NCBI GenBank assembly: GCA_937873495.1
Contig: CALMXZ010000007.1
Coordinates: forward strand, 112,501-176,500
Origin: an uncultured Trueperaceae bacterium
GTDB lineage: Bacteria > Deinococcota > Deinococci > Deinococcales > Trueperaceae
Length of the DNA: 64,000 bases
Direction of reading: 5' to 3'
In this document: positions 46,821 to 50,152 of the stretch, piece after piece
Layout: each line of letters opens with the position of its first letter
How positions within the stretch are numbered: the first letter of the stretch is position 1
Made by a program: the position numbers and the translations under genes
The notes under the pieces: generated by a model
The model's database searches: none
Told to the model about the DNA's origin: nothing
Seen by the model: only the letters and a program-made list of their open reading frames with translations

Positions 46821-48584
46821 TCAGAGCCCCAGTTCCTCATAAGTCAGTACCAAGGGGAACGGGTTCGCTGAGGAAGCTGGGGGCAACTCGTCACTGTCCG
46901 TCTCCTCGTGTCTGTGCGCCAGGTACTCGATGATCCCGTCCGCGAGCGCCTTCGCCAACACCGCCTGGTACTCCTCGCTTGCCAGTAACGGCCCTTCCTC
47001 GGCATGCGTGACGAACCCGAGCTCGAACATGACCGCGGGCACCGACGCCCGGTCCAGCAGATAAGACCCGCGGGACCTCAAACCCCGGTCCGGCGCCCCC
47101 GTGGCGGCAACGAGCCGGGGATGGACCACCTCGGCCAAGGCGCTACTGGCGAGGAGCCGCGCCGTGAGCGTCGCGTCCGGTCCTGGGGCCGGCGTCCATG
47201 TCTGGACGCCGCGGAGAAAAGCGTTGCCGGCGTTGGCATGAAGGCTTACGAGAACGTCGGCGCTAGCCGCGATCGCCAACCGGCTGGTCAGATCGTCGCC
47301 TATGGAGTCACTCAGCCGGTCGGGGCCACTGCGCGTGAGGACCGTTCTTACGCCATTGGCATCCAGCAGATCCGCCAGTTTGACCGCGACCTGCAACACG
47401 ACCGCCTCTTCGTCGACGTACCCGATGGCACCGGTGCCGCCGCCATGCCCCGCGTCGATCGCCACTATGGGTACACCTGCTGCGGGTAACGTCCTCGCTT
47501 CCTGAGCGTCTCCCAGGCTGGCCCACGACGCCAACAGCCCGATACCGACGAACGGGAGCGCAGCCCGCAACGAATTGTGGGTAACAGGCTGACCGAGCAG
47601 GCGCCTCACGCGCCTGACGAGGTGTCCCGGGTTGCCGCCGGCGGTCAACAGCATGGGCGGCCTGACACGCGCACCTTCCAAACGCGCCAGCGCACGCGCC
47701 AACGCCAGGGGCTCGGAACCGGTCGTCGCCACCGCCAAGTCGTCGCATGCCTGCTCGCGCTCGAGCCTGATCACGGCTCCGACCCACCATGTGAAGGGGT
47801 GGAAGGGGAGCGCCACTTCAGCCGTAGCCAGAAGCAAGTTAACTAGGCCGTCCTTCCGCTTGAGATGCGCCAACTCGTGCGTCAAGACCAGGACCAATTG
47901 ATCGTCCGGCATAGCGGAACGCGCGCCACGCGGCAACAGCAAGAGGGGCCGTCGACCACCTATCACCGTTGGCGCGTCTACTCGCGAGCTTTCTCTTATC
48001 GCAACGGGCTTGGGCAATCCCAGCCGGCTTCGCAGGTCTGCCAGCCGACCTTCCAGCTCGGGCAGCGGCCGTCCACTGCGCCCTATGCGCACCGCAACGA
48101 CCAAAGATGCCAGCAGCCGCAGTAGCAAAGCTCCGCTCACTGCCAACCAACTCAAGCCGATGAGTGGTAGAAGACCGTCCGGGCGCGTCACGATAGGAGC
48201 AGCAAAACGCGCCAAGCGCTCGACCGGTAACACCCTGGCCCAACCCGCTAATCCCGCGAGGGAAGCGCTGCCTGACTCCGCGGCTCCACCCAGGGTCGCG
48301 AGAGCCGGACCAACATGTTCGGCGCTCTCGTGCTTAGTCTCGATGCCCTGGTGTGAGATAGGCCGGCGCAACTCACGCACTAAGAGGCCTGCGGGTGGCA
48401 CCGCCAACCAGATCACCAACGTCGTGAGCGCCAGACCGTGACGGAACACGCTGGTCTTCCACCTGGCACAGCGAAGGGCAAGCGCGAGTATGACCGCCAG
48501 CGCAAGCCCCTGCCACAGGCCATCGAACACGATCCAACCGAGACGCGTGAGAAACCCTTCCGGAGCGAGGGTGCCGAACATCAT
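46821..48584 (-). CDS. BlaR1-type M56 protease fused to an N-acetylmuramoyl-L-alanine amidase (Amidase_3)
   Basis: 587 residues. N-terminal helices (about 18-37, 50-68, 138-166) frame a cytoplasmic M56 metalloprotease domain with zinc site H236-E237-L238-A239-H240 and the downstream EREQACDD segment. A further helix (about 341-357) leads to an external Amidase_3 domain (about 371-557) with zinc/catalytic candidates H380 in AIDAGHGG, E392/E393, H449 in SLHANA and E521 in FELGFVTH. In BlaR1/MecR1 that external position holds a penicillin-binding sensor. The gene overlaps the BlaI-type repressor gene by four bases. It should relay cell-wall state to repressor cleavage; catalysis versus pure binding by the amidase is unresolved, though its active-site residues look intact. 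Confidence 0.9.
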   Translation of the reverse strand: MMFGTLAPEGFLTRLGWIVFDGLWQGLALAVILALALRCARWKTSVFRHGLALTTLVIWLAVPPAGLLVRELRRPISHQGIETKHESAEHVGPALATLGGAAESGSASLAGLAGWARVLPVERLARFAAPIVTRPDGLLPLIGLSWLAVSGALLLRLLASLVVAVRIGRSGRPLPELEGRLADLRSRLGLPKPVAIRESSRVDAPTVIGGRRPLLLLPRGARSAMPDDQLVLVLTHELAHLKRKDGLVNLLLATAEVALPFHPFTWWVGAVIRLEREQACDDLAVATTGSEPLALARALARLEGARVRPPMLLTAGGNPGHLVRRVRRLLGQPVTHNSLRAALPFVGIGLLASWASLGDAQEARTLPAAGVPIVAIDAGHGGGTGAIGYVDEEAVVLQVAVKLADLLDANGVRTVLTRSGPDRLSDSIGDDLTSRLAIAASADVLVSLHANAGNAFLRGVQTWTPAPGPDATLTARLLASSALAEVVHPRLVAATGAPDRGLRSRGSYLLDRASVPAVMFELGFVTHAEEGPLLASEEYQAVLAKALADGIIEYLAHRHEETDSDELPPASSANPFPLVLTYEELGL

Positions 48585-48964
48585 CTCCGCCTCGCCTTCT
48601 CGATCAGAGCTTCGATCTCGTCAAGCTCCGCTTTGGTCGCCCGCTTGACATCGAGCGCCCTCGACATGAGCGCCGCAGCCGAACCGCCGAACGCCCGGTC
48701 GAGCAGGTCTCCGAGCAGCGCCGTCTGCGCCTCCTCGCGGGTGACTGCGGCCCAATAGACGTAGGAGCGCCCTTCAAGGTGCCGGCCCACCAGGCCTTTG
48801 TCGAACATGATCTGGAGCATCGTCTGCACCGCCGTGAACGAGAGCTTCTCGCGCTCGTTGAGGGCAGCATGCACGTCGCGTACGCCGGCCCGCCCCCTCA
48901 CCCACAAGACGTCGAGGATGTCCAGTTCCCTCTCGGTAGGACCAGCACTGGCTTTCCGGGCCAT
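48581..48964 (-). CDS. BlaI/MecI-family repressor
   Basis: A 127-residue winged-helix protein: PTERELDILDVLWVRGRAGV, REKLSFTAVQTMLQIMFDKG (recognition helix region), LVGRHLEGRSYVYWAAVTRE and an oligomerisation tail. These proteins are inactivated by proteolysis when their M56 partner is triggered; here the partner gene follows with an ATGA overlap. ATG 48964 has AGGAGG upstream. Two operator copies overlap its promoter, so it autoregulates. Confidence 0.92.
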   Translation of the reverse strand: MARKASAGPTERELDILDVLWVRGRAGVRDVHAALNEREKLSFTAVQTMLQIMFDKGLVGRHLEGRSYVYWAAVTREEAQTALLGDLLDRAFGGSAAALMSRALDVKRATKAELDEIEALIEKARRR

Positions 48965-48984: not shown

Positions 48985-49014
48985 AATCTAAACTAGGGAA
49001 TTAGGCCTTGTCAA
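48985..49014 (-). promoter_or_regulatory. Near-consensus sigma-70 promoter of the BlaI/M56-amidase operon
   Basis: On the minus strand TTGACA (49009-49014) and TTAGAT (48986-48991) are separated by 17 bases. This is the best conventional promoter in the window, upstream of the repressor start at 48964. Confidence 0.75.
48991..49005. promoter_or_regulatory. Operator copy A of the BlaI-type repressor
   Basis: AACTAGGGAATTAGG, an imperfect dyad of form CTAG-RGAA-YTAG, lying inside the promoter spacer and -10 region. Confidence 0.65.
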
Positions 49015-49027
49015 CTAGAGAACTAGG
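49013..49027. promoter_or_regulatory. Operator copy B of the BlaI-type repressor
   Basis: AACTAGAGAACTAGG, a 13/15 match to copy A in direct orientation, placed 22 bases away (two helical turns) and abutting the -35 element. Confidence 0.65.
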
Positions 49028-49069
49028 TTAGGGCGGTCGGCGTTCCTGCACGCCAGCGCCACCAACGGC

Positions 49070-49804
49070 TCAGTACTGCCGGAGTCGCGAGCCGTTCAAC
49101 CTGCGCTGGATCGCGATCACCTCAACAAGGAGCAGCATGGGAAGGACAACGTCCAAAGCCGTGTTCAGTCCGTACCAGAACCCGGACTGGATGAGGGCCG
49201 GCTCGCCGGGAGCAGCGACCACCTTGGCGGCCAGGGAGGCCCCAAGACGGTAGAGGTGGGCGACGGCTACCTGCCAAACCAAGACCCCGACGGCGATCAC
49301 CGCACGGCCTAGCCACACCGAAGACCCGAGGGCCCCCATCACCCGATCGAAGACGGTTGGAGACACACCCAAACGACGCACCAGAAACGCGAGCCCCGAG
49401 ATCACGACCAGAATAGCGAGAAGCGGTGCGTAGAGACGCACCAAAGCGGCGACTCCGAGCAAGGACCTGGACTGGCTCAGGCCGGCAGCGAGCAGGTACA
49501 GGAGCGCCCGCGCTACCGGAACGAGGAGCATGTAGCCCACCAGCCCGAGCAACGCCCACTGCGCCCGCACGGCCCAGCCCATGTTCGGCCTGACCTTGCT
49601 GAACTCCCTCGTCAACGCGTCCGGCGTACCCACGCGGTGCGCGGCCAGCCAGAACGCCTCCTCCGGGCGCAGATCCTCGAGCAGCACCACCTCGATGTGC
49701 TCCAAGTGGTCCTGCAACTCGTCGACCTCGCTCACCGTGAGCCCGCCACGACTCAGGATCGAAGTGCGCCAATCACGAACGGCGGCATCACGGTCGAAAC
49801 TCAT
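49070..49804 (-). CDS. Membrane protein with permease prefix-type N-terminus
   Basis: 244 residues. The soluble N-terminus (VSEVDELQDHLEHIEVVLLE, PEEAFWLAAHRVGTPDALTR) matches the permease prefix domain that accompanies PadR regulators and ABC/FtsX-type membrane proteins. About five helices follow, without a MacB core. The start overlaps the PadR stop by four bases, so the pair is co-translated. In related PadR pairs the membrane partner is under control of the regulator; its activity is unknown. Confidence 0.75.
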   Translation of the reverse strand: MSFDRDAAVRDWRTSILSRGGLTVSEVDELQDHLEHIEVVLLEDLRPEEAFWLAAHRVGTPDALTREFSKVRPNMGWAVRAQWALLGLVGYMLLVPVARALLYLLAAGLSQSRSLLGVAALVRLYAPLLAILVVISGLAFLVRRLGVSPTVFDRVMGALGSSVWLGRAVIAVGVLVWQVAVAHLYRLGASLAAKVVAAPGEPALIQSGFWYGLNTALDVVLPMLLLVEVIAIQRRLNGSRLRQY

Positions 49805-50142
49805 ATCGTCCCCCAGGCGTTCCGCAACGTCACATCGACCGCCTCCCAAGCGGCTCTCTCACCGGCCAGCGCATCGAGACCCTTCTTGGTGATGGCGTAG
49901 TACTTGCGGCGTTTCCCGTTCTCGGCCACCCGCCAGTCCGACTCGATCAGGCCCTCGCGCTCGAGGCGATGGAGCACCGGGTAGAGCATCCCCTCTTGCC
50001 ACGCGAGGGCGCCGCCGGAGAGCTGCTCGACCTCCCTTAAGAGCGCGTAACCGTAGTTATCGCCTCGCCGCGCGAGGACGGCGAGCACGAGCGGGCGCGA
50101 CGACGCCGCCACCAAGTCCTTGGAGGGGGAGAACTCAGGCAC
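49801..50142 (-). CDS. PadR-family transcriptional regulator
   Basis: A winged-helix protein of 113 residues: LVLAVLARRGDNYGYALLRE, LAWQEGMLYPVLHRLEREGL, IESDWRVAENGKRRKYYAIT and a C-terminal dimerisation helix. GTG 50142 lies six bases after TAAGAT (50149-50154) and is preferred; GTG 50148 is in frame but would fall within the promoter. It is probably autoregulated through the palindrome between its -35 and -10. Confidence 0.9.
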   Translation of the reverse strand: MPEFSPSKDLVAASSRPLVLAVLARRGDNYGYALLREVEQLSGGALAWQEGMLYPVLHRLEREGLIESDWRVAENGKRRKYYAITKKGLDALAGERAAWEAVDVTLRNAWGTI

Positions 50143-50152
50143 GACCACATCT

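Follow-up and report, generated by a model that had tools for sequence, protein, structure and literature searches.

A BlaI-paired M56 membrane protease carrying an Amidase_3 domain in an uncultured Trueperaceae bacterium: a putative BlaR1-type receptor with a cell wall hydrolase as its outside domain

Introduction

BlaR1 is known for sensing antibiotics. The BlaR1/BlaI and MecR1/MecI systems of Staphylococcus and Bacillus licheniformis combine a BlaI-type repressor with a four-helix membrane protease of the M56 family (HExxH and ExxxD motifs) whose C-terminal sensor domain is exported, and their promoters carry dyad operators. The zinc site of BlaR1 is formed by H201ExxH and E242xxxD, and both the direct cleavage of BlaI and a sensor-to-protease compression have been demonstrated for it (PMC9834060). 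In B. licheniformis, a dipeptide derived from the cell wall acts on BlaI (PMC3305447). A pair of the BlaI/BlaR1 type is also found in cyanobacteria, where PetR/PetP serves copper rather than beta-lactam responses; its targets are plastocyanin and cytochrome c6, and no wall hydrolase has been described for it (PMC7896320).

The locus described here lies in a window of 64,000 nucleotides, the whole stretch of DNA that was analysed, from an uncultured Trueperaceae bacterium. Like the BlaR1 and MecR1 systems, it pairs a BlaI-type repressor with a predicted four-helix M56 protease that has both motifs and a C-terminal outside domain, with predicted dyad operators at the promoter; like PetR/PetP, it appears to serve something other than beta-lactams. 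It differs from BlaR1/MecR1 in that its sensor is an Amidase_3 domain instead of a penicillin-binding domain and in that its operon lacks a beta-lactamase or mecA. The domain has the fold and all catalytic residues of free Amidase_3 enzymes (CwlV, AmiC, Rv3717 and Nostoc AmiC2) but, unlike these, is tethered to a membrane protease. A literature search (most subscription papers being outside its scope) returned no description of M56 plus Amidase_3 proteins, those of Bacteroidota included, or of hydrolase-bearing BlaR1 proteins; the architecture itself is probably already listed in domain databases.

Gene organisation

The module consists of two genes which overlap by four bases (ATGA):

48581-48964, minus strand: blaI-type repressor gene, 127 aa (ORF list and Pfam; sole PF03965 match found in the genome)
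46821-48584, minus strand: M56-Amidase_3 fusion gene, 587 aa (ORF list and Pfam; sole PF05569 match found in the genome)

These ORFs confirm exactly the coordinates given in the initial annotation, which had reported a repressor overlapping a 587-residue protein by four bases. Pfam analysis identified Penicillinase_R in the repressor (PF03965; 90.9 bits, cut-off 22.6), and Peptidase_M56 (PF05569; residues 137-326; 89.2 bits, cut-off 31) and Amidase_3 (PF01520; residues 374-552; 112.5 bits, cut-off 27) in the fusion protein. The fusion gave no Pfam match to a penicillin-binding domain, its C-terminal part being Amidase_3 only; Pfam, motifs and the structural model agree with the earlier description of a BlaR1 layout in which Amidase_3 takes the place of that domain. 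The repressor scored below the cut-off of the CopY/TcrY equivalog TIGR02698 (57.5 versus 121.95 bits), and the fusion protein far below that of NCBIfam blaR1_generic (57.3 versus 400 bits). Pfam detected neither a beta-lactamase nor mecA in the operon or in those neighbouring genes that were scanned, in keeping with the operon having been noted as free of a beta-lactamase. An Rfam search of the locus returned no RNA element.

The fusion is encoded in one unbroken frame without a second signal peptide, and the amidase begins approximately 10 residues past the last predicted membrane helix (residues 338-362; AlphaFold model). As this helix leads directly into the amidase, it would be the sole export signal and route for the domain.

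Immediately before blaI, on its strand (49070-50148), the gene of a PadR-type regulator overlaps one that encodes a membrane protein whose start is permease-prefix-like; these form a regulatory pair separate from the blaI module.

M56 protease and membrane core

The following features were assigned to the N-terminal part of the fusion protein:

47607-48176, minus strand: Peptidase_M56 domain, residues 137-326 (Pfam; model resembles BlaR1 cryo-EM structures)
47865-47879, minus strand: HELAH zinc motif, residues 236-240 (sequence; invariant alignment columns)
47742-47756, minus strand: E277xxxD281, counterpart of BlaR1 E242xxxD (invariant columns; BlaR1 motif from PMC9834060)
47499-47573, minus strand: last predicted membrane helix, residues 338-362, leading outside (model secondary structure)

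Residues H236, E237, H240, E277 and D281 are invariant in an alignment of 72 rows; the predicted M56 active site is complete, with metal and catalytic residues kept. The AlphaFold model of the whole fusion has a mean pLDDT of 77, with the M56 core mostly above 90 and the amidase part less confident (many blocks at 55-85); the relative placement of the two domains in this model is unreliable. Four long membrane helices are present in the model (residues 11-39, 45-73, 135-170 and 338-362). Foldseek analysis matched it to the cryo-EM structures of Staphylococcus aureus BlaR1 (PDB accession nos. 8ext and 8exq; probability 1.00), with a low global TM that supports the fold but not its detail. By homology to BlaR1, the four-helix membrane core would place the M56 domain inside and the amidase outside.

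Amidase_3 domain

The C-terminal half of the protein comprises one feature:

46929-47465, minus strand: Amidase_3 domain, residues 374-552, with H380, E392, H449 and E521 intact and the AmiC-type blocking insert absent (Pfam and alignment; fold match 5emi)

The amidase motifs are DAGHGG (residues 377-382), SLHAN (447-451) and FELGF (520-524). H380, E392, H449 and E521 are invariant among 30 free and fused amidase domains from several phyla, so that fused and free amidases alike keep the catalytic Glu and the full set of three zinc ligands. The putative amidase active site is complete, and the loss of zinc ligands that the initial annotation had named as a possible objection is not seen in the alignment. 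The best solved relatives of this half are CwlV (1jwq) and Nostoc AmiC2 (5emi), and Foldseek with the model retrieved Amidase_3 structures (5emi, TMt 0.84). The structural modelling suggested at that earlier stage has produced matches to both BlaR1 and Amidase_3 structures.

An insert of approximately 40 residues following the second His region was found by alignment in most free amidases of Trueperaceae and Thermaceae. It is missing from the window amidase and from the fused amidases of Bacteroidota, as well as from the free Deinococcota amidases L010 and L016. AmiA/B possess a self-blocking regulatory region (PMC10268282), to which this insert may, by its position, be equivalent; if this is right, the fused amidase would have an open active site.

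Promoter and putative operators

A promoter-like sequence (TTGACA-N18-TAGATT) and two operator-like boxes were identified ahead of blaI:

49009-49014, minus strand: predicted -35 element of the blaI promoter, TTGACA
48985-48990, minus strand: predicted -10 element of the blaI promoter, TAGATT
48991-49006, no strand assigned: operator-like box 1, AACTA-N6-TAGGC, which occupies the whole -35/-10 spacer and differs from AACTA-N6-TAGTT at 2 positions
49013-49028, no strand assigned: operator-like box 2, AACTA-N6-TAGGT, which lies 22 bp upstream of box 1 and differs from AACTA-N6-TAGTT at 1 position

Both boxes (form AACTA-N6-TAGG) lie within a 22-bp direct repeat, and box 2 overlaps the edge of the -35 element. 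The placing of the repressor among BlaI proteins draws on its profile match together with these two dyad-like boxes, candidate operators, at its own promoter. Genome-wide, AACTAGRGAAYTAGG with fewer than two mismatches occurs at two sites, both of them before blaI, while looser matches reached totals no higher than the control. The cross-phylum pattern AACTA-N6-TAGTT was likewise present genome-wide in no more than control numbers, and paired boxes were found nowhere else in the genome. Given that the operator pair was found ahead of blaI alone and that other near-matches do not rise above the control, the main target of the operon is probably the operon itself, which supports the original guess as to its regulon; a distant target with a weak or degenerate operator is conceivable. 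Two further operator candidates with two mismatches each (C14:42907 and C15:123397) were rejected, the totals of 16 and 12 being lower than the 28 and 27 of the reversed-pattern control.

Several BlaI promoters of the same family possess a palindrome at the same -35/-10 position, and L127 (AACTAATTTATTAGTT) and L128 (TACTAATTAATTAGTA) share the half-site of the window promoter. A different palindrome, of the ACGAA...TTCGT type, occupies this spacer in the BlaI promoters of L114, L116, L120 and L126, which suggests two operator specificities (this type versus the window half-site) inside one family.

Fusions in Bacteroidota and their origin

A sample of 345 genomes from Bacteroidota, the phylum that includes Spirosoma, yielded four M56-Amidase_3 proteins. 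One of these, from G1006, then served as query against 296 genomes of the family to which G1006 belongs; both domains were present in 17 of the 30 best loci, which were those examined. In total, such fusions occur in at least 20 Bacteroidota genomes. The uniqueness implied at first for the window protein does not hold, given these fusions and a version with an SLT domain in Acidobacteriota (below).

The survey of neighbouring genes proposed in the initial annotation showed blaI directly upstream, on the same strand, in 20 of 20 Bacteroidota fusions. AACTA-N6-TAGTT (0-1 mismatch) is present in 18 of these 20 blaI promoters, usually as pairs 20 bp apart; its 42 sites compare with 0.52 expected from shuffles, an expectation that ignores shared descent, so that the count overstates the independent evidence. 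The half-site class is common to these promoters and that of the window. The Bacteroidota proteins (L232-L234, L243, L245 and others) thus resemble the window protein in domain order, upstream blaI and operator class, but their origin is probably separate, and several possess extra Plug or TonB-like C-terminal parts. In most of the loci inspected, the neighbouring genes are unrelated and on the opposite strand, which makes this a module without an obvious separate target gene.

Close relatives of these fusions in Chitinophagaceae (L246, L247 and others), with M56 domains up to approximately 60% identical, lack the amidase; their C-termini are Plug/TonB-like, consist of Plug-like repeats or are unknown, which shows that the outside domain is often gained or lost.

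The M56 tree places the window protein beside its sister L003, from the same family (99*), and far from the Bacteroidota fusions. In the amidase tree, its domain joins the free amidases of Deinococcota (support 90), again apart from the Bacteroidota fusions. Forcing all fusions together in the M56 tree was rejected (AU p=0.000135, log-likelihood 249 lower), under a constraint that leaves out nearby non-fusion Bacteroidota rows. The M56 test and the amidase tree indicate that two origins of M56-Amidase_3 are the better reading.

Other outside domains of M56 proteins

C-terminal regions were surveyed in 92 sequences, namely the 80 best M56 relatives that an alignment-driven scan gave from 84,980 species, and family members. 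Amidase_3 was found in the window protein only and in none of the 80 best relatives. The other C-termini are very diverse (TonB_C, CarboxypepD_reg, DUF3738, SBP_bac_5, PQQ, ankyrin and others), and the swapping of outside domains is thus normal in the M56 family. Two family relatives (L006 and L007, from G096 and G109) have M56 joined to an entire peptide-binding domain, SBP_bac_5, possibly forming a peptide-sensing receptor. In another locus (L004, G097:C654), which has BlaI upstream, the beginning of a Beta-lactamase domain (PF00144) comes after M56, and the frame stops early.

Apparent long matches from Acidobacteriota (G376, G400, G271 and others) were rejected as amidases and led instead to the SLT fusion L150. 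Lytic transglycosylase SLT domains form 10 of 85 M56 C-termini in this phylum (carriers include L150 (G427:C1), L201, L204, L210, L214, L216, L217 and L219). Most members have a catalytic motif of the ES...GLMQ type, and L150 and L288, at least, have blaI directly upstream. Two other Acidobacteriota M56 proteins match Polysacc_deac_1, possibly a further wall or polysaccharide enzyme used as an outside domain.

The finding is real and more general than first noted, and amounts to the swapping of a domain in a family for which such swaps are known. BlaR1-type receptors appear to have recruited wall hydrolases repeatedly, as Amidase_3 and as SLT. It is tentatively suggested that these proteins form an unrecognised, repeatedly evolved BlaR1-type class bearing an active peptidoglycan hydrolase outside (Amidase_3 in Deinococcota and Bacteroidota, SLT in Acidobacteriota), in which the signal would be the cutting or engaging of the wall, the relay BlaI proteolysis and the response synthesis of the protein's own hydrolase. 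If true, a receptor with a wall-cutting enzyme as its sensor would link transcription to the turnover or damage of the wall within a single protein, and the old proposal that BlaI-type repressors are controlled by products of peptidoglycan breakdown would become testable. That M56 receptors have convergently recruited hydrolases from two unrelated families suggests that sensing of the wall may be a frequent role of these receptors outside pathogens, and a recurring, separately evolved design points to an undescribed wiring of wall damage to gene control.

Proposed mechanism

Domains and reading frame support the architecture initially described, in which a wall enzyme is coupled to a BlaI repressor. 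The reading preferred here, and considered on balance probable, is that of a self-contained, autoregulated signalling module. At rest, BlaI would repress its own operon. The exported amidase would engage or cut peptidoglycan, be it exposed or altered wall or fragments of it, and the resulting movement would be relayed via the membrane helices as in BlaR1. M56 would then cleave BlaI and the operon would be derepressed, the main output being more of the receptor-amidase, a wall-triggered wall hydrolase under positive feedback. This order of steps, from amidase through M56 to BlaI, is borrowed from BlaR1. The amidase is not essential to the Chitinophagaceae M56 branch, which counts against the mechanism.

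Instead of allostery, an active amidase might exert feedback through its products, with released stem peptides entering the cell to derepress BlaI directly while M56 processes the peptide or the repressor. When a gamma-D-Glu-diamino-acid dipeptide that arises in wall turnover binds BlaI/MecI, the complex with DNA is destabilised, and BlaR has been proposed as the maker of this dipeptide (PMC3305447). Amidase_3 enzymes release stem peptides, its precursors. The strictly kept catalytic residues also favour product feedback, but S. aureus BlaR1 cleaves BlaI directly without other components (PMC9834060), and this explanation is held to be unlikely as a replacement. Because the amidase releases the dipeptide precursor, such a route is compatible with the proposed relay from amidase to M56.

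Control might otherwise run from the inside outwards, M56 setting the activity or release of the attached amidase and BlaI merely tuning its amount. BlaR1 is capable of self-cleavage (PMC9834060), and fused amidases lacking the insert at the self-blocking place of AmiA/B (PMC10268282) would be expected to have some other restraint. However, BlaI accompanies every fusion without exception and the core is BlaR1-like; both points favour signalling from the outside in to the repressor, making this reversed order rather unlikely.

The amidase could also be a peptidoglycan-binding domain only, localising or sensing without turnover, much as the BlaR1 sensor is itself a penicillin-binding enzyme domain used for sensing and as other M56 proteins bear binding-type domains such as SBP_bac_5. 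Pure binder domains usually lose catalytic or zinc residues. Here, neither the catalytic Glu nor any of the three zinc ligands varies among fusions and free enzymes, and the unrelated SLT fusions retain their catalytic Glu motif, so that a role in binding alone is improbable.

Lastly, an assembly or frameshift artefact joining two genes, a risk already recognised in the initial annotation and suggested by the presence of the fusion in a single genome of its genus, is effectively refuted by the uninterrupted, helix-led frame without a second signal peptide and by the same domain order with upstream blaI in at least 20 Bacteroidota genomes.

Distribution and acquisition

No second M56-Amidase_3 protein was found among 111 genomes of the window's own phylum, and a sample of 343 Planctomycetota genomes gave no copy among the matches listed. 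A scan of 84,980 species genomes with fusion patterns, which were too specific, gave no match, and a plasmid search returned no record covering 80% of the fusion protein.

A single BlaI and a single M56 protein were found in the window genome. In five other genomes of the same genus, BlaI was not detected and M56 gave no match to the fusion. DNA matches to these congeners end where phnE ends, synteny being otherwise uninformative. Third-position GC is 0.69-0.82 in the module versus 0.91-0.94 in three neighbouring genes; by this low value and its absence from congeners, the module is likely a recent arrival.
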